A stretch of 64,000 nt of DNA from Oscillospiraceae bacterium (GCA_015068555.1 SVKI01000006.1:1-64000); one strand, 5' to 3'. Shown: positions 15,574-46,389, counted from the stretch's first letter. Made by a program: numbers and translations. The notes: a model not told the origin generated them from the sequence alone.

Positions 15574-18500
15574 TTATAAATCAAATAAGCTCACCTGATT
15601 GGTCTCCGGAATATCTTCAAGCACACGGAACTCCTGCAGTTTTTCCACAATCGAGTTACCGATTTGTGCGCGGCGCTTAAAGTCCTCAATCGATAAGAAG
15701 GGGCCTTCTTCACGTGCCAAACAAATGGATTCTGCCACAGCATCCGAAACACCGGCAATGGTGTTAAGCGGCGGCCTGATGGCACCGTTTTCTTCCACGA
15801 ATTTGGTGTGATGAGAAGCATATAAATCCACCGGCAAAAAGCGAATGCCGCGTGCATACATCTCATTACAAACCTCTAAAATCGTCAACACATTTTTTTC
15901 CTTTGCCGTCGCATCGGGATTCGTTTCAATTTCCTTCATAGCGGCCATCACTCGCTCTTTTCCTCCCAACATACGCTCTGCATCAAAATCCGTTGCACGC
16001 ACGGTGTAATAGGCAATATAGAACGAAACAGGATAATGCACCTTAAAATAAGCAATGCGAAACGCCATAGTCACATACGCCGCCGCATGCGCCTTGGGGA
16101 ACATATATTTAATGGTCTTACAAGATGTGATATACCATTCGGGAACCTTCTTTTCCCGCATCAGCTCTTCATCCTCCGGCGCAAGGCCCTTACCCTTACG
16201 GACTTTTTCCATAATTTTAAAAGAAGTGAGAGGCGGCAAATCATGCTGTAGCAAATACAGCATAATGTCGTCACGGGTACAGATAACCTCCGGCAAGGTA
16301 GCCGTACCTGCCCGCACCAGATCCTGTGCATTATTGGTCCACACATCCGTCCCGTGGGAAAGACCTGAAATACGAATCAGTTCACTGAAGGTGGTGGGTT
16401 TGGTATCCAGTAGCATCTGGCGTACAAATTTAGTACCAAATTCCGGCACCGCAAACGTGCCCACCTCACTACCGATGTCCTCCGGCGTAACGCCCAAAGC
16501 CTCCGTACTTGTAAAAAGACTCATGGTCGGCTTATCATCAATAGGAATCGTACGGGCATTGAGGCCGGTTAAGTCCTCCAGCATACGAATCATACTGGGG
16601 TCATCATGGCCCAGAATATCCAGTTTCAGCAATCGGCCGCTGATGGAATGATAGTCAAAATGCGTGGTGATAACACCGCTGTCCGACTTATCTGCCGGAT
16701 GCTGAATCGGTGTAAATTCGTACACCTCATTGGCACGCGGCACAATCATTACACCGCCCGGATGCTGACCTGTCGTACGCTTCACACCTTCAAGGCCCAA
16801 GGATAATCGCTTCATTTGCGCTTTAGTCAGGGCGAGTCCATTTTCTTCTGCATATTTTTTCACATAGCCCATTGCTGTGTTTTCAGCAAGCGTGCCAATC
16901 GTGCCCGCACGGAATACATTACCCTCGCCAAACAGCGTTTCTGTATATTTATGTGCCACACTTTGATATTCACCCGAAAAGTTAAGGTCAATATCCGGCT
17001 CTTTATCACCGTCAAAACCCAAAAAGGTTTCAAAGGGTATATCATATCCGTCCTTTTTGTATTTGGCGCCGCAAACAGGGCAATCCTTGTCCGGCATGTC
17101 CGCCCCCATGCTATAGCTACCATCCTGAATGAATTCTACATTCTTACAGGACGGACACAAATAGTGCGGAGGCAACGAATTAATTTCCGTGATGCCGGAT
17201 AAAAACGCAATGAATGAAGACCCTACAGACCCTCTCGAACCTACCAGATAACCATCTGACAGGGATTTCGTTACCAGCTTCTGCGCAATCATATACATAA
17301 CCGAAAAACCGTATTTTGTGATGGGAACCAGTTCTTTCTCCATGCGTTTTTCAACCAGTTCCGGCAGGGTTTCACCATACAGTTCATGCGCCTTACCGTA
17401 GGAAAGCTCTGTCAATTCCTCGGTCGCGCCGGGCATCTCCGGCGGATAGGTTTCTTTTGGAATCGGTCGTATCTCCTCAATTTCATCCGCTATTAAGTTG
17501 GTATTAGTCACCACAATTTCATATGCCTTTTCCTGTGGTAAGTAGGTAAACTCACAGAGCATTTCATCCGTTGTGCGCAGGTATAAAGGCGCCTGCTGAT
17601 TGGCATCATCATAACCTTTTGCCGTCTGTAAAACCTCCCGGTAAATCGCATCATCCGGGTCTAAAAAGTGCACATCGCAAGCCGCCACAACGCGTTTACC
17701 CAGTTTGTCGCCCAGCTCAACGATGGTCTTATTCATATCTTCTAATTCTTCTTTGCCGGATACCATGTGATTGCGCACCATAAATTCATTGTTGCCCAGC
17801 GGCTGAATTTCCAGATAATCATAATACGAAGCAATTTCGGCAATTTCCTGCTCTGTTGCACCTCTGAGAATCTTTTGATACAGTTCTCCCGCTTCGCAGG
17901 CACTGCCTAAAAGCAAGCCCTCTCTGTGTGCATCAAACATATGCTTCGATATTCTCGGCCGCTTATAAAAATTATCTATATGCGACTCTGATACAAGCTT
18001 ATATAAATTCTTTAAACCAACCATGTTTTTCACCAGAATAATGGCATGGTAGGTATCTGTATAGCGCTGGTTGCTTTCACCCGCCAAACGCTCATTAATC
18101 TGCAACACATTCTGAATATCCAATCCTTCCAAAAGTTCAAGGAAGTGCAGAAAGATGCGGGCAGTTACCTCTGCATCGTTAATGGCACGATGATGCCCTT
18201 CAAACACAAAGCCCAGATGTTTGGCCACGCGATTTAATTTATGGGTTTTAAGTGCTGATAATAAACGCCTGCTCAGCATCAGCGTATCAATATAGCAAAA
18301 ATCAAAGGGAAGACTTAATTCTTCTGCTTTCTTTTTGATGTAACCCACATCAAAGCCTGCATTGTGTGCCACCAACACACAGCCTTGGCAAAACTCTAAA
18401 AAGGCCGGTAAAACAGCTTCAATCGGCTCAGCATCAGCCACCATCTCATTGGTGATATGGGTTAGTTCTGTGATGTGATACGGAATCTCGCGACCGGGCT

Positions 18501-19839
18501 TCACAAATTTAGAAAACTGCTCCGTCACGCGTCCGTCTTTCACCTTGACCCCGGCAATTTCAATCACCTCGCCATAGCGGGCAGAGAGACTGGTTGTTTC
18601 AATATCGAACACAACAAATTCGCCGGAAAGGGGCATGTCCTTGGCATTGTAAACATAAGAAGCCTGATCAGCCTCTAAATAAGCTTCCATACCATAAATA
18701 ATCTTAATGCCTTTATCCTTTCCCGCATCAAAAGCTTCAGGGTATGCCTGCACAACGCCATGGTCTGTGATGGCAATCGCCTTATGTCCCCAGGCAGCCG
18801 CTCTTCCAATCAGTTTTGACGGCTTTGCCAGTGCATCCTCTGCCGACATAGAAGTATGTGCATGCAACTCCACCCTTTTTTCCTCTGCCTTATCCGGACG
18901 CACACTGACAGAAGCCTTCATCATATTGTCAAAGGTAACGGTGACTTCTCTGGCAAAGGTATCATATTGTGCCCTTCCCGCAACGCGCACAGCACCCAAC
19001 TTTTTAAGGCTTCCCTTAAGTTCGTTATACTCTTCTTCTTTCAAAAACGATTTACAAATGATACAGCTACTGTCATCTGCTACATACAACTCTAAAAGCG
19101 TTTTTTTATTCTTCAGTTCTCTGGTTTCAAACGCAATGACCCGCCCCTCAACAATCACCTTGCCGCTGTTTTCATCAATTTCAGAAATCGGCGTTAATAC
19201 CCCACCAAACGGCTTACCAAGCAAAACATCCTCCGGCGTTTCCGGCTTCTCTCTTTTTTCCGGCTTTTGTTTTTCGACCGTCATAGCCGTTTGAGAGGCC
19301 TCATGAATCAGTTTTGCACGCTCATTTTCGAGCTTTTCAAAAACAGAATCCGTTGAGATATTTTCTTTTTTAAATACAACCTGACACGAAAGCTTGTATA
19401 CCTCACGCAAAAGTTTCTCAAAATACGCTTTTACACCACTTTCTTCCAGGGTTTGTTCGCCACCAAACTGCAGGGTAATCAGCAGTTTTTCATCTTCTAA
19501 AGCAGCACTGCTGCCCAGCAAAATTCCCTTACATGCAGGAAATTTTTCGCATACCTCCCGTACCAATTCAGGATAAACTAACATAATGTTTTCAGCCGAA
19601 ACAGCCGCTTGTTTATATGTAACACTGAGCGAAATCTCTAAAAGGCCGAATTTATCCTTCACCTTTTCGCGCAGTAAATCCAACAGATTTTGCTCTACCA
19701 CGCTTTGACAGGATAGCACAATATCCGCTTTTCGTTCTTCTTTATATATCTTCAGTTTTGTAACTTCTGCCCCTTCCAATTTCCCGGCAAGTTCTTCACC
19801 GGCAAGCAGAAATAACAAATTCTCTGCCTTTGTACTCAT
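15574..19839 (-). CDS. polC: DNA polymerase III alpha subunit PolC (Gram-positive type)
   Basis: Main replicative polymerase with built-in 3'-5' exonuclease, 1421 residues. N-terminal domain, OB fold (about 220-310), PHP domain starting at ELHAHTSMSAEDALAKPSKL, the inserted DEDD exonuclease starting at FVVFDIETTSLSARYGEVIE and containing VLVAHNAGFDVGYI, then the palm/fingers with a zinc site (CPSCKN and CPVCGAKY) and the active-site stretch DKEPDIDLNFSGEYQ. GGAG lies eight bases before the ATG. ispG lies 22 bases upstream on the same strand. Confidence 0.98.
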   Translation of the reverse strand: MSTKAENLLFLLAGEELAGKLEGAEVTKLKIYKEERKADIVLSCQSVVEQNLLDLLREKVKDKFGLLEISLSVTYKQAAVSAENIMLVYPELVREVCEKFPACKGILLGSSAALEDEKLLITLQFGGEQTLEESGVKAYFEKLLREVYKLSCQVVFKKENISTDSVFEKLENERAKLIHEASQTAMTVEKQKPEKREKPETPEDVLLGKPFGGVLTPISEIDENSGKVIVEGRVIAFETRELKNKKTLLELYVADDSSCIICKSFLKEEEYNELKGSLKKLGAVRVAGRAQYDTFAREVTVTFDNMMKASVSVRPDKAEEKRVELHAHTSMSAEDALAKPSKLIGRAAAWGHKAIAITDHGVVQAYPEAFDAGKDKGIKIIYGMEAYLEADQASYVYNAKDMPLSGEFVVFDIETTSLSARYGEVIEIAGVKVKDGRVTEQFSKFVKPGREIPYHITELTHITNEMVADAEPIEAVLPAFLEFCQGCVLVAHNAGFDVGYIKKKAEELSLPFDFCYIDTLMLSRRLLSALKTHKLNRVAKHLGFVFEGHHRAINDAEVTARIFLHFLELLEGLDIQNVLQINERLAGESNQRYTDTYHAIILVKNMVGLKNLYKLVSESHIDNFYKRPRISKHMFDAHREGLLLGSACEAGELYQKILRGATEQEIAEIASYYDYLEIQPLGNNEFMVRNHMVSGKEELEDMNKTIVELGDKLGKRVVAACDVHFLDPDDAIYREVLQTAKGYDDANQQAPLYLRTTDEMLCEFTYLPQEKAYEIVVTNTNLIADEIEEIRPIPKETYPPEMPGATEELTELSYGKAHELYGETLPELVEKRMEKELVPITKYGFSVMYMIAQKLVTKSLSDGYLVGSRGSVGSSFIAFLSGITEINSLPPHYLCPSCKNVEFIQDGSYSMGADMPDKDCPVCGAKYKKDGYDIPFETFLGFDGDKEPDIDLNFSGEYQSVAHKYTETLFGEGNVFRAGTIGTLAENTAMGYVKKYAEENGLALTKAQMKRLSLGLEGVKRTTGQHPGGVMIVPRANEVYEFTPIQHPADKSDSGVITTHFDYHSISGRLLKLDILGHDDPSMIRMLEDLTGLNARTIPIDDKPTMSLFTSTEALGVTPEDIGSEVGTFAVPEFGTKFVRQMLLDTKPTTFSELIRISGLSHGTDVWTNNAQDLVRAGTATLPEVICTRDDIMLYLLQHDLPPLTSFKIMEKVRKGKGLAPEDEELMREKKVPEWYITSCKTIKYMFPKAHAAAYVTMAFRIAYFKVHYPVSFYIAYYTVRATDFDAERMLGGKERVMAAMKEIETNPDATAKEKNVLTILEVCNEMYARGIRFLPVDLYASHHTKFVEENGAIRPPLNTIAGVSDAVAESICLAREEGPFLSIEDFKRRAQIGNSIVEKLQEFRVLEDIPETNQVSLFDL

Positions 19840-37530: not shown

Positions 37531-37620
37531 ATTCTTGTCCCCTTTCTTTTGCTAGTAACAATATATGGAACAAGCTGTTTAATTATGATAGATGTTGCAA
37601 ATAAACAAATGTCAATACAA

Positions 37621-37653
37621 AAAGAGGCTGTGACAAATTGCCACAGCCTCTTT
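37621..37653 (-). terminator. Terminator of the creatininase-containing operon
   Basis: AAAGAGGCTGTG (37621-37632) and CACAGCCTCTTT (37642-37653) form a perfect 12-pair stem; T run follows on the minus strand. It sits nine bases after the creatininase stop. Confidence 0.88.
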
Positions 37654-37661
37654 CTCTCATG

Positions 37662-38450
37662 TTATGCGTGTAATCTTGCTTCCAAATCATCAACCAGTTT
37701 CACTAAATTATCAACAATTTCCTGACTAACCTTTTCACCCAGTTCACGCGTTGCGCGTTCCGGATATCCCATAACACCAACTTTGATTTCCTCACGCTGG
37801 TGCACTGATTCTATAACAAAAGGATGGTCAAACGCTTTAGAACTTACTGCATACCAGTCAGGGTCTGTACGCAGATTCTTTGCAATTTCTTCTTCATCCA
37901 AAACAATTTCATCGCGCACCATTTCCGGCTTCCAATATAGCATATTGGAGGTTTCAATCAAGCCTGCATGATAGTCATGCTCCTCGACTGCCTGCATACC
38001 AATCTGAGACAGTTCCTGCACATCCATCATAGCTATGGCAACATCTTTCGTTTTTTCTTTATCACGGCGTAAAAGCATCTGCAAGGTACTGCGTAGGGCA
38101 TCCGTATTTTCCGAACCGCCGTGACCTAACAGAATCACGATGTTTTTAAAGCCCATGCGAATAAATTCAGAGCAAATTTCAGACATGTAAAGGCCGAAGG
38201 TGTTGGGACTGACATTGACCGTGCCCATCAATTCGCCACCCGAAAAGCAATAGTTCACAGAAGGCGCCACAACCGCGTTCAATCTGTCTCCTGCCAAGCG
38301 GGGCGGAATCACCGCGTTGAAAATATCGGTGCCTAAGGGCAGATGAAAACCGTGCTGTTCCGGTAATCCGACCGGAATAATAACAGTCTTAGTTTTTTTA
38401 ATGACCTCTTCCATCTCACGGACGGTCATTTCTTCCATAATATAAGCCAT
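37662..38450 (-). CDS. Creatininase-family amidohydrolase
   Basis: Metal-dependent hydrolase of 262 residues. Metal-binding residues are in place: E31 and H33 in GLPEQHGFHLPLGTD (with D42), H110 in LLGHGGSEN and E166 in HAGLIETS. Members hydrolyse cyclic or linear amide bonds (creatinine, FAPy, PQQ and mycofactocin precursors). AGGAG lies eight bases before the ATG. Last gene of the five-gene operon; an amide-bond cleavage step on an amino-sugar derivative would fit its neighbours, but this is inference. Confidence 0.88.
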   Translation of the reverse strand: MAYIMEEMTVREMEEVIKKTKTVIIPVGLPEQHGFHLPLGTDIFNAVIPPRLAGDRLNAVVAPSVNYCFSGGELMGTVNVSPNTFGLYMSEICSEFIRMGFKNIVILLGHGGSENTDALRSTLQMLLRRDKEKTKDVAIAMMDVQELSQIGMQAVEEHDYHAGLIETSNMLYWKPEMVRDEIVLDEEEIAKNLRTDPDWYAVSSKAFDHPFVIESVHQREEIKVGVMGYPERATRELGEKVSQEIVDNLVKLVDDLEARLHA

Positions 38451-38467
38451 ATTTTCTTCTCCTAATA

Positions 38468-38502
38468 CTTAACCACACAGGGTCTTACCCCGTGTGGTTA
38501 AG
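38468..38502. other. Intercistronic hairpin upstream of the creatininase gene
   Basis: CTTAACCACAC and GTGTGGTTAAG form a perfect 11-pair stem, extended inside by GGG/CCC. No T run follows on either strand, so processing or message stabilisation is more likely than termination. Confidence 0.6.
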
Positions 38503-38509
38503 TTGTTTA

Positions 38510-39619
38510 TTATTTAATTAAATCTTCAACACTGGGCATTTTAATGGTCTTGCCACCATTTTTAAAGGATTCCTCACCAATTAAACCGGGCAATGCAATG
38601 TTAATACCAAATTCAATATCAAGGGGCGGCTTGGTATCATTTATGATACAGTCTACAAATGCCTGCATCATCTTAGGATCAGCTCCACCGTGTCCTTCTT
38701 CTGATGCACCGGGATAGCCATCAAACGCCGGGATAACCACTTCACCCTTTGTGTTGGGAATGCTCTTAAAGTAACCCAAGGAACCGGGTTCCTGTGTTTC
38801 CTTTCTGCGACGGTATTCCAAAGAACCTTTAGAACCATACATCTCAAAGTTATGACGGCATGTGTGATGCACACCGAAGCCGATAAAGATTTTAATCAAA
38901 GTACCCTTCTTGGTTTTTACCATAATAACACCATTGGGCGGTGCAGGATGTGCTTCTTCAATGGGATTAAAGCCCGGAATAAAACCGCTGATTTCATCAC
39001 AGGTGTCATCCAGAATGTAAAGCAGGGGACCTAAGTTATGTGTCAAATAATGAATGGAGGTCAGATATGAACGCCAGGTCATTTTAATGCTGCCATCCGG
39101 ATTACGGTCAAATTCACCTTCGTGGGGATGAATGTAGTCAGATTCTGCATAGACAACATCACCCAGCAGACCTTCTTCATACATCGTCTTCCATGAATTG
39201 ATAAACGCCCAGAAACAGCAGTTTTCTGCCACCATGAATTTGAGATTAGGATGTGCTTTAACAGCTTTACCCAACTTGGTTGCTTCTTCAAAAGAAGAAA
39301 TGTTGGGAATTTCGCACAAAACGTGCTTGCCGGCTTCCATACACTGAATGGAAATGTCGCTGTGCGTAGAAACATGTGTCGCCACGATAACAGCTTCCAC
39401 ATCCGACTTCAAAAAATCTTCAATATTGTTGAAATACTGAATACCCTGCACATTCTTTTCCACTTCCATGGTGTGCTTGAATTTAGCAAGTGCTTCATCA
39501 CTTTTATCACAAACCGCATAAAGCTCCACATTATTTAAAAGTGTAGCCATTTTATACAGACCCGCACCTCTGGGGCCTAGACCAATACAACCAAGTTTAA
39601 CCTTTTTTGTTTCTGCCAT
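38510..39619 (-). CDS. Gfo/Idh/MocA-family protein, GH109-like
   Basis: NAD(P)-dependent protein of 369 residues with the Rossmann start KLGCIGLGPRGAGLYKMATL and the C-terminal Gfo/Idh domain. Stretches MVAENCCFWAFINSWKTMYE and SIHYLTHNLGPLLYILDD follow the pattern of GH109 glycosidases, which break glycosidic bonds through transient C3 oxidation. The ATG at 39619 has AAGGTGG upstream and removes a 19-residue extension with no ribosome site. It may therefore be a glycosidase rather than a simple dehydrogenase; key residues were not verified by alignment. Confidence 0.83.
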   Translation of the reverse strand: MAETKKVKLGCIGLGPRGAGLYKMATLLNNVELYAVCDKSDEALAKFKHTMEVEKNVQGIQYFNNIEDFLKSDVEAVIVATHVSTHSDISIQCMEAGKHVLCEIPNISSFEEATKLGKAVKAHPNLKFMVAENCCFWAFINSWKTMYEEGLLGDVVYAESDYIHPHEGEFDRNPDGSIKMTWRSYLTSIHYLTHNLGPLLYILDDTCDEISGFIPGFNPIEEAHPAPPNGVIMVKTKKGTLIKIFIGFGVHHTCRHNFEMYGSKGSLEYRRRKETQEPGSLGYFKSIPNTKGEVVIPAFDGYPGASEEGHGGADPKMMQAFVDCIINDTKPPLDIEFGINIALPGLIGEESFKNGGKTIKMPSVEDLIK

Positions 39620-39641
39620 TGTTATCCACCTTTCTAAGCTA

Positions 39642-40688
39642 TCAAACTTTTTTGCAGACGCCCTCTTCAGATGCAAGATATGCTGTTTCTACAATCTTTT
39701 GCACAAAAAGACCATCTTCTGCGGTAATCACCGGCTCTGTATCCTCTAAAATGGCATTGGCAAATGCTGAAATTTCTTTCTCATACATGTTGCCCGTCAC
39801 CACTTCAACTGTTCGCGTATCATTGACACTCTCTCTGTTTTGTTGCGCATTGTAACAAGCTGCTGCATCTGAAACCGTTAATTCTATTTTACCTGCTTCT
39901 ACCTGGCCGATTGTGCCTTCCGCTAAAATACTGCCACAGGTCCCGTAAAATTCCAAACGGCATTGAGCTGCATTATCCGGAATGTTAAAGTTCGCATCCA
40001 CATAGGCGGTTGCACCGCTATCCATCTTCATAAGCAGAGCAGCCGAGTCATCTGCTGAATAATTAAAGGTCTGATTCTGCGCAAAACATGTCACTGTTTT
40101 CGCCTTCGTTCCACTGATATATTGCAACAAATCGATACAGTGAATACCCATATCCATCAAAGCGCCACCGCCTGAGCAAGCCTTATCCTGACGCCAGTTA
40201 CCCGGTATTTCAGGATACCAGCAAGTGAGCTGACCACGCATAGAAACAACATCACCAATAACGCCGTTTGCAATGAGTTCTCTCATTTTTTGATGATAAG
40301 AAGAGAAACGCATCATCAGTCCAACACCCAATTTCACGCCCTGTGCTTTGCAAAAATCAGCTATTTCTTTAGATTCTGACAGGGAAAGACCCATGGGCTT
40401 TTCAAGCAGAATATGCTTTTTTGCCTTTGCAGCAGCCATCGCTTGCTCTTTATGGCAAAAAACAGGAGTCGCAATGTAAACCGCATCGATTTCATTCAGC
40501 GCGAGCACTTCTTCAACCGTTGCAAATGCATACTGTGCGCCAAATTCTTTTTTCACCTTTTGAGCGGCCTCAAAATTAGTGTCCATAACGGCAACGAGTT
40601 CGCTGTTTTCAGCAAGCATCATTCCGGGGATGGTACGTCTGTAAGCGATACCACCACAGCCGATAACACCCCATTTGATTTGTTTCAT
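39642..40688 (-). CDS. Gfo/Idh/MocA-family oxidoreductase
   Basis: Sugar or cyclitol dehydrogenase-like protein of 348 residues. Rossmann motif WGVIGCGGIAYRRTIPGMML, the EKP signature in HILLEKPMGLSLSES (catalytic lysine) and the DMGIHCIDLLQYISG block with a candidate catalytic His. AGAGGTG before the ATG. Begins three bases after the aminotransferase stop codon and precedes a second Gfo/Idh protein, so two redox steps, or a redox pair, act in the same pathway. Confidence 0.9.
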   Translation of the reverse strand: MKQIKWGVIGCGGIAYRRTIPGMMLAENSELVAVMDTNFEAAQKVKKEFGAQYAFATVEEVLALNEIDAVYIATPVFCHKEQAMAAAKAKKHILLEKPMGLSLSESKEIADFCKAQGVKLGVGLMMRFSSYHQKMRELIANGVIGDVVSMRGQLTCWYPEIPGNWRQDKACSGGGALMDMGIHCIDLLQYISGTKAKTVTCFAQNQTFNYSADDSAALLMKMDSGATAYVDANFNIPDNAAQCRLEFYGTCGSILAEGTIGQVEAGKIELTVSDAAACYNAQQNRESVNDTRTVEVVTGNMYEKEISAFANAILEDTEPVITAEDGLFVQKIVETAYLASEEGVCKKV

Positions 40689-40691
40689 GAA

Positions 40692-41999
40692 TTATACACC
40701 TCTCTGCATCTCATCAACAGCCTCTAAAACAGCATCAGCCATATATGCAAGCTGTTCATCGCTCAGGCCGTACAGGGGCAGATGAGTAAATCTCTTATAG
40801 AATACTTCTTCGCAATTGGGGCAGGTTTTCGCAATTTCATCAGCATCATAACCCATATCTTTTACAATTTGGAAGCGATACAAAGGACCAAAGTGAGCAA
40901 TCTGGGTAACGCCTTTAGCTTCCAGCTTCTTTTTCAGAACCTGTACATCGCCACCGGCTTTGGCAGGGTCAATCTGTAACAGATATAAGTGGAAGGTCGG
41001 CTTAATGTCTTCATTACCCAAATCCTGCGGGATGATGGCATCGTTTTCTTTAAATCTATTAGAAAGGTAAGCTGCAGCCTTTCTTCTAATTTCAATAATC
41101 TCTTCGTTACGAGCAACCTGCAGAGTCAGACCAAGGCCCTGGATTTCGGTTGTAGAAGCGTTACCGGGAACAAAGGGAGCTTCTTTACCCTGAATCGGTG
41201 TGATGTTATAAAGCCAATCCTTAATCGGGCAGCTAAAGTCAAGACCTAAGAAACGAGCACGCTTTAATTCGCTGCCAAAGTCAGGGACATTAGTCGTTAA
41301 AATGCCGCCTTCACCGAAGGAGGTAATGTTTTTAACTTCATGCATGGAGAATGCCGCAAAGTCACCAATGGTACCAATCTTCTTACCTTTATACATTGCA
41401 CCAAATGCGTGAGCAGCATCTTCGAGCACCAGAATATTGTGCTTTTTAGCCAGCTCCATGATGGGATCTAAATCTACAGGATAACCACCGATATGCACGG
41501 GCACAATCATCTTGGTTTTATCCGTAATCTTTCTTGCTACATCGGCAGGATCCATGTTAATAGTTTTCGGGTCAACATCGGCAAACACAAGTTTTGCACC
41601 AACGGCCAAGGGATACGCCATAGTAGCCACAAATGTGATAGCCGGAACGATAACTTCATCGCCGGGTTTTAAGTTTGCATATTTATAAGCAATTTCAAAA
41701 CCGGCTGTTGCATTGGTTACAAAAGTAGAAGTTGTTGTACCCAGGTATTCATTACAAGCAGCTTCCGCCTCTTCAACCTTGCTGCCCAAAGAAAGTTTGC
41801 CCGGCGGCGTTGCCAGGCTATCCAGCTTTTTAACCTGCTGCCAAACAGCTTCTAATGCATCGTCGTATTCCTTACCTTCACCCTGCATTAAAAAGCGGAT
41901 GATTTCCATTAAATCGTGAACATTGTAATTTTCACCTACTGCTGCCCAGGGCACACGTGTTGCACCTGTGTTGTAACGAAAGTCTGTTGCTTTACCCAT
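40692..41999 (-). CDS. DegT/DnrJ/EryC1/StrS aminotransferase
   Basis: PLP enzyme of 435 residues that normally transfers an amino group to a keto sugar. Seen are the VTNATAGFEIAYKYANLKPG region, VLEDAAHAFGA and the PLP lysine in FSMHEVKNITSFGEGG. The ATG at 41999 lies eight bases after GGAG; one two codons upstream is too close. It is longer at the N-terminus than most DegT proteins. In this operon it could work in reverse, removing the amino group from an amino sugar. Confidence 0.9.
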   Translation of the reverse strand: MGKATDFRYNTGATRVPWAAVGENYNVHDLMEIIRFLMQGEGKEYDDALEAVWQQVKKLDSLATPPGKLSLGSKVEEAEAACNEYLGTTTSTFVTNATAGFEIAYKYANLKPGDEVIVPAITFVATMAYPLAVGAKLVFADVDPKTINMDPADVARKITDKTKMIVPVHIGGYPVDLDPIMELAKKHNILVLEDAAHAFGAMYKGKKIGTIGDFAAFSMHEVKNITSFGEGGILTTNVPDFGSELKRARFLGLDFSCPIKDWLYNITPIQGKEAPFVPGNASTTEIQGLGLTLQVARNEEIIEIRRKAAAYLSNRFKENDAIIPQDLGNEDIKPTFHLYLLQIDPAKAGGDVQVLKKKLEAKGVTQIAHFGPLYRFQIVKDMGYDADEIAKTCPNCEEVFYKRFTHLPLYGLSDEQLAYMADAVLEAVDEMQRGV

Positions 42000-42034
42000 T
42001 TTCATATCTCCTTTTCATATATGATGATTTGTTC

Positions 42035-42661
42035 TTAAAACTCTGGCAGATAGCTCTGCTCTCTTTCCTCCCAGCAAACCTCACGCACTTCAATATCCTT
42101 GACTTTCAGCTTGGTTGAATAGGGAGAAAAACCAACATAGCCACCTACAATGGGATCCATATTATCAACGACCTCCTGAATCAGAACGTCATCAACAATC
42201 AAAAAGTTATGTCCCTGAACTGCACCCGTGGTAATTCTCACTTCGGTACCGGGTTCGTAGTGATATAAGGATGTTAAACAACGAAGCTCATCCTCAGGGA
42301 ATCGTTCAATACCACTCTTGCTTTCATACCAGCCGTTTAAGCCGGAAATGTAACCTTTTTTCAGATAGTTATTCTCCTCATCCCAGGTTACACAGTACAC
42401 GGCATTTAAATCCCTTGTGGCCGGCAAAACACTGGCCATGGTAAAGGAAAACATCACATCTTTTTCAAAACGCTCGCGACTGAGCAAAATGCCTCCCTTG
42501 TTAGCCGGCTCCGTTCCTATCAAATAGCCATTTTCATACGTCCAGCATCCGGCCGTATCACGCCACACTTCCTGCCAGTTTTCGTCCGGCTGATAGGAGA
42601 GCACGACCGGGGATTTTTCCACATTAATTTTTTTCCCAAGGAGCAAAATTTCCTTTTGCAT
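42035..42661 (-). CDS. DUF1961/DUF1080-like beta-sandwich protein
   Basis: A 208-residue cytoplasmic protein without signal peptide. Strand-rich sequence with NGYLIGTEPANKGGILLSRE, DEENNYLKKGYISGLNGWYE and YHYEPGTEVRITTGAVQGHN reads like the concanavalin-type fold of DUF1961 (YesU) or DUF1080 proteins; some DUF1080 members act on 3-keto-glycosides. The ATG at 42661 with GGGGA upstream was preferred. First gene of the operon. Family placement is by eye and moderate. Confidence 0.6.
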   Translation of the reverse strand: MQKEILLLGKKINVEKSPVVLSYQPDENWQEVWRDTAGCWTYENGYLIGTEPANKGGILLSRERFEKDVMFSFTMASVLPATRDLNAVYCVTWDEENNYLKKGYISGLNGWYESKSGIERFPEDELRCLTSLYHYEPGTEVRITTGAVQGHNFLIVDDVLIQEVVDNMDPIVGGYVGFSPYSTKLKVKDIEVREVCWEEREQSYLPEF

Positions 42662-42708
42662 ATCCGTCCCCTTTTCAATTTTTTCATCCATTAAAATAAT
42701 TCTTTCTC

Positions 42709-42737
42709 ATTATATCATTTTTTTATGAAACCGTCAA
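42709..42737 (-). promoter_or_regulatory. Promoter of the five-gene catabolic operon
   Basis: Minus-strand TTGACG (42732-42737), 17-base spacer, TATAAT (42709-42714). The leader before the first gene is about 40 bases. The rest of the gap up to rpsT is AT-rich with no further feature. Confidence 0.83.
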
Positions 42738-42963: not shown

Positions 42964-42999
42964 AGTAGAAGTCATTAAAAGGGCATGGAGGTGAAAGCA

Positions 43000-43266
43000 T
43001 TGCCTAACATTAAATCCGCTAAAAAAAGAGTTAAAGTCATTAAGACCAAAACACTCCGTAATCAGATGATTAAATCTGCCGTAAAAACATATATTAAAAA
43101 GTTCGAAGCTGCGGCTGCCACTGGCGATAAAGCCGTTGCAGAACCCGCTTTCAATCTGGCTGTTAAGAAAATTGACCAGGCTGTCAGCAAGGGTATCATG
43201 AAGAAGAATACCGCCTCCAGAAGAAAGTCGCGGTTGGCTCTCATGCTGAACAAAGTCGGCGCATAA
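43000..43266 (+). CDS. rpsT: 30S ribosomal protein S20
   Basis: Primary 16S rRNA-binding protein of 88 residues, start MPNIKSAKKRVKVIKTKTLR, end NTASRRKSRLALMLNKVGA. The start is TTG at 43000 with GGAGGTG six bases upstream; an ATG five codons earlier overlaps that site. Single-gene transcript with its own promoter and terminator, away from its frequent neighbour holA. Confidence 0.97.
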   Translation: MPNIKSAKKRVKVIKTKTLRNQMIKSAVKTYIKKFEAAAATGDKAVAEPAFNLAVKKIDQAVSKGIMKKNTASRRKSRLALMLNKVGA

Positions 43267-43402: not shown

Positions 43403-45355
43403 TTACAGAGTCTGCACAACTTTATTCTTTTCTTTAGTCAAAATCTGCATCATAATCATTAAAGCAACCAAAACCACGCCGATAACATCTGTCACCCAGC
43501 CGGGATAAATCAGCAAAAGTCCACCGGCAAGGCTGATGATTCTCTGATACCAGGGCATGTGATGGAATAAATAACCCTCAAGCGACGCTGATACAGCAAA
43601 GATACCAATAATCGAGGTGACGCTGATGGTTATAACTTCCCAGACACTTGTATCAATAAACAACATCGCCGGGTTAAGTGCAAACACATACGGAACGATA
43701 AAGGCACCAATGGCAAGCTTTGTCGCTGTAAAGGCCGTTTTCATTGGATTTGCCTGACCTATTGCCGCTCCTGCATAGGCTGCAAGCGCAACCGGCGGTG
43801 TAAGGTCTGCCACAATACCAAAATAGAACACGAAGAAATGAGCCGCAATGTTCGGCACTCCCATACGAACCAAAATTGGTGCACAGGTTGCCGCCATGAT
43901 GCAGTAGTTTGCTGTAGTCGGCACACCCATACCCAAAACGATACAGCAAAGCATGGTTAAAAACAGAGCAATGATAACCTGATTGCCTGCAAGCGCCACA
44001 ATGCCGTTAATCATAATATTGGCAAGGCCTGTCATCGTGATGGTTCCGGCGATGATACCTGCCACACCACAAGCCGCCGCAACTGTAATCATGCCTTGAC
44101 CGCCCGCAGCTAATGCTTCCCACACCTTTTTGGGCGTGATACGGTTTTCTTTGTTAAACAAGCTCACCACAATGGCCACTACAATTGCAATAGCTGCCGC
44201 ATACTGGATAGAACGCTGACTGGTACCAACCAGGTAGATAAGGATAATGAGAGGCAACAGTAAATAGGTTTTCTTTAAAAGAGGTAGCAGTCGGGGCAAT
44301 TCCTCTTTTGTCAAACCGCGAAGGCCTTCTTTTTTAGCTTCCAGATGTACTGCAATAAAAATACCTGCAAAGTATAAAATTGCCGGCAAAATAGCACGAA
44401 CAACGATGTTACTGTACGGAACACCCACATAATCTGCCATCAAAAAGGCTGCTGCGCCCATAATCGGTGGCATAATTTGGCCGCCTGTTGAAGCAGAAGC
44501 TTCTGCTGCAGCAGCAAATTCGGGTTTATAACCCGTCTTCTTCATCAAAGGAATGGTTACAGAACCGGAACCAACCGTATTAGCAACCGACGAACCTGAT
44601 ACCATACCCTCCAGCGCACTTGCCACAACCGCAACCTTGGCCGGTCCGCCGGAAAAGCCACCAACAATTGAGTTGGAAATTTGGATAAAGAAGTCAGCAA
44701 TACCGGTACGTTCCAAAAAGGCACCAAAGATGATAAACACCACAATGAATTTAGAGCATACATTAATAGGCGTTGATAAAATACCTTCTTTTCCATAGAA
44801 CAAATAGTGCACAATGTAGTTTAGTTTCCCCCAGAGCGTTGGATTCGACAAACCACCAAAGAGCGCATATAAAATAAAGCAACATGCAACAATAACGATT
44901 GGCAAGCCTACGCTTCGTCTACAGACTTCAATCAGAGAAATAATGCCCATAATGCCAATTATAATTTGATACCAGGTAAAATTACTACCCTGCTGAATGA
45001 TAGAAACAGCATTACATGCATAATAGCAGAACGCACCTGTACCACAAAGCATAAGCACAACATCATACCATGGCATATAGTTCGTTTTTTGCACGCCTTT
45101 TTTAGCCGGAAAAACAAGGTAGCCAAGTAAAATAATAAACGCTACGAATGTCGTGAGGCGAAGTTCTTCAAGCCAGCTCGCAAACAGCGTTACATAAATG
45201 CAAAACAAAGAAAAAATTGCCAGGAGACAATTCACCAAAACCCTTGCCTTGCCTTCCCAAATTCGGGTATTTGACTCACGGTCAAATTTTTTCATAACTG
45301 CATCCAGGTCCATAGGCTCTGTTGGTACAGTAGCCTTCTTCTTACCGAAAATCAT
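43403..45355 (-). CDS. TRAP transporter fused permease (TAXI type)
   Basis: Membrane part of an ion-driven TRAP transporter, 650 residues with about 18 helices. The N-terminal four-helix DctQ-like part (about 50-210) is fused to the DctM-like part, with GGFSGGPAKVAVVASALEGM, SGSSVANTVGSGSVTIPLMK, GGQIMPPIMGAAAFLMADY and GMGVPTTANYCIMAA typical of the fused permease family. AAGGAGG before the ATG. Follows its binding protein by about 74 bases. Substrates of characterised relatives include glutamate and C4 acids; not assignable here. Confidence 0.93.
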   Translation of the reverse strand: MIFGKKKATVPTEPMDLDAVMKKFDRESNTRIWEGKARVLVNCLLAIFSLFCIYVTLFASWLEELRLTTFVAFIILLGYLVFPAKKGVQKTNYMPWYDVVLMLCGTGAFCYYACNAVSIIQQGSNFTWYQIIIGIMGIISLIEVCRRSVGLPIVIVACCFILYALFGGLSNPTLWGKLNYIVHYLFYGKEGILSTPINVCSKFIVVFIIFGAFLERTGIADFFIQISNSIVGGFSGGPAKVAVVASALEGMVSGSSVANTVGSGSVTIPLMKKTGYKPEFAAAAEASASTGGQIMPPIMGAAAFLMADYVGVPYSNIVVRAILPAILYFAGIFIAVHLEAKKEGLRGLTKEELPRLLPLLKKTYLLLPLIILIYLVGTSQRSIQYAAAIAIVVAIVVSLFNKENRITPKKVWEALAAGGQGMITVAAACGVAGIIAGTITMTGLANIMINGIVALAGNQVIIALFLTMLCCIVLGMGVPTTANYCIMAATCAPILVRMGVPNIAAHFFVFYFGIVADLTPPVALAAYAGAAIGQANPMKTAFTATKLAIGAFIVPYVFALNPAMLFIDTSVWEVITISVTSIIGIFAVSASLEGYLFHHMPWYQRIISLAGGLLLIYPGWVTDVIGVVLVALMIMMQILTKEKNKVVQTL

Positions 45356-45380
45356 TAAGAAACCTCCTTGGAATATGATA

Positions 45381-45411
45381 AAACGGTTGCGACACCATAT
45401 CGCAACCGTTT
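45381..45411. other. Intercistronic hairpin between TAXI binding protein and permease
   Basis: AAACGGTTGCGA (45381-45392) and TCGCAACCGTTT (45400-45411) form a perfect 12-pair stem. Partial termination or message protection here would give more binding protein than permease, the usual need. Confidence 0.7.
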
Positions 45412-45429
45412 CTCATCGTGTTTTAGAAA

Positions 45430-46389
45430 TTAGTCAACGGCCACTGTTACACCTTTTTCAGCAAAGTATTTTGCTGCACCTGCATGGAAAGGAACAATCA
45501 TACCGCTGGTTGCATTTTCAATGCTGAGTTCTGCTCCCTTAGCATTTTCTGCTGTAATAGCCTCAGCATTGTCAAAAATTGCAGCAGTCAGTTTATATAC
45601 ATCATCTTCGCTGGCTGCAGCATTAACAATCAGGGTAGCCTTAACAGTTACTGTATTTACATCCTCTGTCTGACCTGCGTAGGTACCGGCAGGGATTGTA
45701 TGAATTGTATAGAAGGGGCAAGATGCCATCAGCGTTTCAGCAACAGCACCATCGATGGGCACTAAGTATGCCTGATTGGTGGTGCACAGCTCTGTGATAG
45801 CCGGTGTCGGAGCACCTGCAACGATAAACGCAGCATCAATTTTGCCGTCTTTTAAAGCATCAGCGCTATCAGCAAAAGACTGATACTGTGCTTTAATATC
45901 GTTCTCCGTTAAGCCGGCAGCAGTCAATACGTCAATTGCATTGAAGTAAACACCGGAACCGGGCGCACCGATAGAAACAGCTTTACCCTTTAAGTCTGCT
46001 ACAGTTTTGATTGCAGAATCCATAGTTACCAGCTGAACCGCTTCAGCATATAAACCGGCAACGGTACGGAAGGAATCAATTTTACCTTCTGCTTCAAAGG
46101 AACGGGTACCTTCCCAGGCATATGCCATAACATCAGACTGAACAGTACCCAACTGATAGTTGCCTGCCTGAATGCCCTGGATGTTAGCCTTAGAACCATC
46201 CGTAGAAACAACAGTAACATTTACGCCTGCATTGTTTGTGATGTACTGACCGAGCACACCGCCATAACCATAATATGTACCAGAAGTACCGCCTGTACCC
46301 ATTGTCATTTTTGTGCCGCCTGCGCCGTTACATGCTGCCAAAGCCAGCATCATAACCAGTGCAAGTACAATAGAAATTACTCTTTTCAT
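45430..46389 (-). CDS. TAXI-family TRAP substrate-binding lipoprotein
   Basis: Extracytoplasmic binding protein of 319 residues with a lipoprotein signal (LALAACNGAGG, lipid-modified Cys at about 20). TAXI hallmarks are MGTGGTSGTYYGYGGVLGQY, VQSDVMAYAWEGT, VSIGAPGSGVYFNAIDVL and the C-terminal MIVPFHAGAAKYFAEKGV. AGGAGG precedes the ATG. First gene of the transporter operon, with its own promoter and an upstream palindrome. Confidence 0.95.
   Translation of the reverse strand: MKRVISIVLALVMMLALAACNGAGGTKMTMGTGGTSGTYYGYGGVLGQYITNNAGVNVTVVSTDGSKANIQGIQAGNYQLGTVQSDVMAYAWEGTRSFEAEGKIDSFRTVAGLYAEAVQLVTMDSAIKTVADLKGKAVSIGAPGSGVYFNAIDVLTAAGLTENDIKAQYQSFADSADALKDGKIDAAFIVAGAPTPAITELCTTNQAYLVPIDGAVAETLMASCPFYTIHTIPAGTYAGQTEDVNTVTVKATLIVNAAASEDDVYKLTAAIFDNAEAITAENAKGAELSIENATSGMIVPFHAGAAKYFAEKGVTVAVD

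Follow-up and report, generated by a model that had tools for sequence, protein, structure and literature searches.

The five genes at positions 37662-42737 of the window (the whole stretch of Oscillospiraceae DNA that was analysed, 64,000 nucleotides in length) raise the question of which pathway would bring together a DegT aminotransferase, two Gfo/Idh/MocA proteins, a creatininase-family enzyme and a lectin-fold protein. DegT-family sugar aminotransferases are known chiefly from biosynthesis, and the direction in which such a set of genes would work is part of the question.

The region is one five-gene operon on the minus strand, running from promoter to terminator (Table 1). All five open reading frames of the initial annotation were recovered on this strand, with short gaps of 29, 3, 22 and 59 bp from gene 1 to gene 5. 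The single promoter and single terminator claimed there were likewise borne out by a near-consensus site upstream and a strong hairpin with a U run at the end. The likely start codon of gene 1 follows the promoter-like site by approximately 48 bp; this site was the sole 11/12 match in the region, in a scan which overall did not rise above shuffled sequences (12 sites found versus 14.8 expected). The terminator hairpin was overlooked by a simple terminator scan. A further hairpin, between genes 4 and 5, was absent from the initial annotation; it is perfect and long, and has no second copy elsewhere in the window. It might reduce the amount of distal transcript or serve in its processing. An Rfam search of the operon, this hairpin included, returned no match.

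Table 1. Features of the operon and their positions in the window.
Feature	Position	Strand	Remarks
Promoter-like site	42709..42737	(-)	TTGACG-N17-TATAAT, TG extension before second hexamer; 11/12 consensus positions
Gene 1, lectin/jelly-roll-fold protein	42035..42691	(-)	DUF1961-like, resembles B. subtilis 1oq1; likely start 42661
Gene 2, DegT/DnrJ/EryC1/StrS aminotransferase	40692..42005	(-)	PLP lysine K225; conserved core of the cassette
Gene 3 (GfoA), Gfo/Idh/MocA dehydrogenase/reductase	39642..40688	(-)	EKP lysine K97, D179, H183; Pfam
Gene 4 (GfoB), GH109-like Gfo/Idh/MocA protein	38510..39619	(-)	EIP in place of EKP; GHGG motif; Pfam
Intergenic hairpin, genes 4/5	38467..38503	(-)	-28.4 kcal/mol, z -7.4; strong, without U run
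Gene 5, creatininase-family metallohydrolase	37662..38450	(-)	PF02633
Intrinsic terminator	~37619..37655	(-)	Hairpin -28.9 kcal/mol, z -6.8, then U run

The family assignments of genes 2 to 5 all lie above the Pfam cut-offs. Gene 2 scored 249 bits against PF01041 (cut-off 19.8), and its PLP lysine, K225 in HEVKNITSFGEGG, is invariant; transamination by this protein is likely. The kinship of the DegT protein to characterised enzymes is only distant: none of the NCBIfam equivalogs PseC, WecE, ArnB, LegC family and DesI was reached, the best being PseC with 203.9 against a cut-off of 423.5. Gene 5 scored 166.6 bits against PF02633 (cut-off 31.3). Its residues E31, H33, D42, H110, H161 and E166 are invariant across 13 sequences and are likely to be metal ligands and nearby acid/base residues; the equivalog cut-offs were again not reached for creatininase (106 bits, cut-off 235), MftE (90, cut-off 172) or IolN (59, cut-off 245). 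GfoA carries PF01408 (Rossmann) and PF22725 (C-terminal domain) above cut-off, with K97, D179 and H183 invariant across 7 sequences, and its best solved relative is 1,5-anhydro-D-fructose reductase (E 7e-36). The start of gene 4 was corrected to the position given in Table 1, where AAAGGTGG precedes the ATG. The GH109-like label given to its product earlier may fit: the closest solved relative, 6t2b, is a GH109 protein (E 1e-14); the aligned region lies mostly in the N-terminal half, a second and weak one being found at GHGG, and the two proteins have in common both this motif and the lost EKP lysine. The profiles thus give no specific function for any of these four proteins, each of which falls short of every NCBIfam equivalog cut-off.

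The DegT alignment was scanned against the GTDB genome collection, yielding orthologous loci (L024-L082). There were 59 of them, 66-94% identical, all in metagenome-assembled genomes of gut Clostridia. Where the title names a site, nearly all come from herbivore cecum, colon, rectum or faeces and one from goat rumen, a skew to which sampling bias may contribute. An even draw of 398 genomes of the phylum gave a close DegT match in just one genome beyond the window's own. The lectin-fold gene accompanies DegT at 22 of the 59 loci, always upstream on the same strand and mostly within 100 bp; GfoA stands beside DegT at 26 and the creatininase-family gene at 13. At least two of these three partners were found with DegT at 19/59 loci and all three at 7/59, while 13 of the 32 loci with 3 kb or more of sequence on either side had none of them. 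Such a lone DegT is often accompanied solely by an AraC regulator with a PocR domain; a divergent regulator of this type was seen at 19 DegT loci (e.g. L030:8952-9815).

Only the window and a congener (L015/L075; two species, one genus) have GfoB next to DegT, and it is an accessory member of the cassette. The exact five-gene set is therefore not a conserved unit, and of the expectation that the genes are kept together in other genomes only the DegT-centred part survived: what is conserved is a core of four genes around DegT, in shuffled order, and the window carries one local form of a recurring modular cassette of gut Clostridia. The DegT gene also looks horizontally transferred. A PolC-like, housekeeping-like protein of 1421 aa (window 15574-19839) is 81, 78, 64 and 56% identical to its counterpart in genomes G001, G002, G016 and G068, respectively, and DegT 91, 91, 84 and 88%, so that the most distant of the four (G068) has a closer DegT than a genome of the same family.

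Gene 1 probably starts at 42661, because a GGGG stretch precedes that ATG and homologues begin at the matching MKDILLLGKK. Its sequence had no match in Pfam (E 0.01), NCBIfam or the PDB, also when a gene 1 profile was run against the PDB; the DUF1961 sequence profile did not match it, and no relatives were found among the viral contigs searched. Its AlphaFold model (pLDDT 90) was best matched by 1oq1_A, B. subtilis YesU (Z 20.2, rmsd 2.3, 187 of 218 residues aligned), with ordinary lectins clearly lower (Z 14-15). The previous label, DUF1961/DUF1080-like, thus finds support in the predicted fold and none in the sequence. Homologues of gene 1 also occur without DegT (L020:7879-8574, L021:1147-1782, L019:9503-10123), next to a GH88-family gene or uronate genes (glucuronate isomerase, uxuA-like), settings which resemble the rhamnogalacturonan context of 1oq1/YesU.

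The fold of gene 1 bears on one alternative, already suggested with the initial annotation, the cleavage of an amino-sugar conjugate by way of a 3-keto-glycoside, in which GfoA/GfoB would oxidise C3, the lectin-fold protein would eliminate/hydrate, and DegT would act on the freed keto sugar. To judge by family membership, oxidation to a 3-keto sugar and bond cleavage would be possible steps. The model shares its fold, without a sequence match, with the DUF1080 3-keto-glycoside eliminase/hydratases (Z 15-16; for 9fbe Z 16.2, rmsd 2.9, 172 residues aligned), GfoB is closest to GH109, and genes for Gfo and xylose-isomerase-like TIM-barrel proteins stand alongside a PIG-L gene in G000 and G068. 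Gfo dehydrogenases are also a feature of the known 3-keto-glycoside pathways (BT2156-BT2160 type, DgpABC, OGE), from which the cassette differs in that its gene 1 is without sequence similarity to DUF1080 and that it is linked to DegT and deacetylases. However, gene 1 matches both 1oq1 and the non-catalytic CBM66 (Z 19.4, rmsd 2.5, 160 aligned) better than the eliminase/hydratases, GfoB is absent from nearly all loci, and DegT is frequently found without gene 1. This route is considered unlikely.

The genes around DegT at other loci point to the degradation of an N-acetylated amino sugar, and fall into two sets. The first consists of PIG-L, PfkB, class II aldolase and NagB-like genes, placed in line with DegT, creatininase-family and GfoA genes at L025, L037, L038, L039 and L045, or across a divergent regulator at L062, L067, L069 and L081. 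PIG-L and NagB-like genes were strictly linked over all loci (p ~1e-9). On contig C14 of the window's own genome an AraC regulator is divergent from TIM-barrel, Gfo, PIG-L and NagB-like genes, the PIG-L being 93% identical to that of the DegT operon at L025. In G068, AraC, TIM-barrel, two Gfo, PIG-L, PfkB and NagB genes form a single stretch. The PIG-L family was present in 7/7 genomes checked, all of them DegT carriers, adjoining a NagB-like gene in all six from the gut.

The second set consists of a NagC-like ROK regulator, an MFS transporter and a protein, named FIDD, that has no match in Pfam or NCBIfam. The FIDD model (pLDDT 76) resembles CE4/ArnD/chitooligosaccharide deacetylases to a moderate degree (3rxz: Z 12.4, rmsd 3.3, 206 aligned; 8t0j: Z 11.8, rmsd 3.5, 217 aligned), and judged from this predicted structure FIDD is probably a deacetylase-like family without annotation. 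Members were seen at L042:7154-8080 and in four copies in the genome of the window (L096, L097, L098, L099). Mutual exclusion of the PIG-L and CE4-fold genes was considered and set aside: the two never occurred together, yet the association was not significant (Fisher p 0.57). Downstream modules vary, with a KDG kinase and an HpaI-type aldolase in L015 and uxuA/uxuB in L064. The sugar class is therefore not fixed, and given these uronate-pathway neighbours amino-uronates are possible substrates.

The direction of the reaction is suggested by a distant Firmicute, G382, in which the order is ROK regulator, DegT, alanine dehydrogenase, sugar ABC-transporter genes and creatininase-family gene. Its DegT is 64% and its creatininase homologue 46% identical to those of the window; of the other genes beside DegT, a divergent Gfo shares 46% and an SDR 53% identity with genes by the DegT operon of L015. 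On the same contig, PIG-L and a GfoA homologue (48%) accompany a DegT of a second type. The alanine dehydrogenase scored 529 bits (curated cut-off 392). Its position downstream of DegT suggests catabolism, with pyruvate taking the amino group, alanine carrying it off the sugar and ammonia being released. Alanine dehydrogenase adjoins DegT only in G382, and none above cut-off was found in the genome of the window (74% complete) or in most close relatives, which would have to use a different acceptor or another way of recycling it.

The opposite direction, in which the genes would make an amino sugar or aminocyclitol destined for a surface glycan or secondary metabolite, would agree with the classical role of Gfo and DegT pairs. 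Such pairs convert hydroxyl, keto and amino groups into one another during the biosynthesis of kanosamine (NtdA/NtdC), UDP-GlcNAc3N (GnnA/GnnB) and ManNAc3NAcA, and StrI/StsC serve in that of streptidine. NtdA/NtdC, GnnA/GnnB and WbpE/WbpB have, like the cassette, a Gfo dehydrogenase and a PLP-dependent DegT in one operon; among the NCBIfam models DegT scores best with biosynthetic transaminases, and six or seven loci have two DegT genes in tandem. In contrast to these systems, the neighbours of the cassette are catabolic and its DegT is far below every curated subfamily cut-off. The annotated neighbours of DegT include no glycosyltransferase, no nucleotidyltransferase or nucleotidyl-sugar gene and no synthase; they are deacetylases, deaminase-like proteins, a kinase, an aldolase, import genes and catabolic regulators, to which G382 adds the alanine dehydrogenase. 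Biosynthesis is accordingly regarded as quite improbable.

Catabolism of an aminocyclitol (inosamine) was the other candidate. Here DegT would convert an amino-inositol to an inosose, a Gfo protein would form a diketo-inositol, and the creatininase-family enzyme would open the ring in the manner of IolN, the 3-dehydro-scyllo-inosose hydrolase. The Thermotoga-type IolN route and the rhizopine moc route combine a Gfo dehydrogenase with a creatininase-superfamily hydrolase as the cassette does, the substrate of the moc route being an amino-inositol; the Thermotoga IolN route is not known to include a transaminase. Gene 5 matched the IolN model with E 5e-16 (the G382 homologue with 70 bits), the best NCBIfam match of GfoA was IolG, and the top-scoring solved relative of DegT is named glutamine--scyllo-inositol transaminase. 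In addition, PfkB matched IolC first, the TIM barrel of C14 weakly matched IolO and IolE, and L015 has a KDG-type kinase with an aldolase. Yet all such scores are far under the curated cut-offs, gene 5 scores higher with creatininase and MftE than with IolN, no IolD above cut-off was found in seven DegT genomes (one 74% complete), and the PIG-L and NagB-like genes suit amino sugars better. An aminocyclitol substrate is thus doubtful.

The reading preferred here, with a probability of about 0.5, is that the cassette forms a mobile, modular element of gut Clostridia and removes nitrogen from an unusual amino sugar which probably arrives N-acetylated, freeing its carbon for use. Degradation of an amino sugar had been proposed for the operon before, and this part gains from the deacetylases, NagB-like deaminase, sugar kinases, aldolases, NagC-like regulators and sugar transporters near orthologous loci, and from the alanine dehydrogenase of G382. 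With direction, order of steps, amino acceptor and substrate all inferred, the pathway may be pictured as follows. The sugar would be imported and then de-N-acetylated by a PIG-L or CE4-fold protein, encoded elsewhere in the genome of the window. DegT would pass the amino group thus exposed on to a 2-oxo acid (probably pyruvate) and so yield a keto sugar, which GfoA would reduce with NAD(P)H to an ordinary sugar or oxidise further; DegT and Gfo would thereby run the biosynthesis of a 3- or 4-amino sugar in reverse. The creatininase-family enzyme would hydrolyse an amide (N-acyl) or related bond in the substrate, the lectin-fold protein would bind or process a glycoside, and GfoB would be an accessory, possibly an NAD-dependent glycosidase. 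Isomerisation/deamination, phosphorylation and aldol cleavage would fall to the NagB-like, PfkB and class II aldolase proteins as final steps. A more specific version is put forward tentatively: a dedicated route of hindgut Clostridia for a rare 3- or 4-amino sugar, in which DegT and Gfo work backwards (amine to ketone to alcohol) after N-acyl removal by PIG-L, CE4-fold or creatininase-family enzymes, and which spreads horizontally as interchangeable modules.

The nearest catabolic systems, NagA/NagB, AgaA/AgaS and the archaeal Dac route, have in common with the cassette loci a de-N-acetylase, a NagB-fold enzyme, PfkB, a class II aldolase and a NagC-like ROK regulator. The cassette differs from them in using PIG-L or a CE4-fold protein for NagA and in adding the DegT, Gfo, creatininase-family and lectin-fold genes. 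A literature search (DegT with creatininase or DUF1961, aminocyclitol catabolism, amino sugar plus alanine dehydrogenase) found no description of it; it is built from known enzyme families, and the catabolic combination itself is apparently undescribed. If the preferred reading is true, it would explain how hindgut bacteria recover carbon and nitrogen from amino sugars that are beyond the reach of the usual NagA/NagB routes. Several families that lack annotation would also gain a role, namely those of the lectin-fold protein and the CE4-fold FIDD and the clade of gene 5 creatininases. With so few genes, and with enzymes that look soluble, the cassette lends itself to direct assay.

The operon of the window has no transporter gene inside. 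A TAXI-type TRAP transporter with permease and binding protein fused (43403-46389) lies upstream on the same strand, and the divergent rpsT (42985-43266) with a bidirectional terminator stands between it and the operon. This transporter was considered as the importer of the operon and rejected, as it is behind rpsT and was not seen at other loci. At six or seven loci the first DegT gene is immediately followed by a second, different one (e.g. L046:11360-12634; also L116:8787-10064), and it is the G382 homologue of this second type that sits with a GfoA homologue near PIG-L. In two metagenome-assembled genomes the DegT reading frame is split in two (L028:2386-4971 and L078:1618-2978), by a frameshift or an assembly error.
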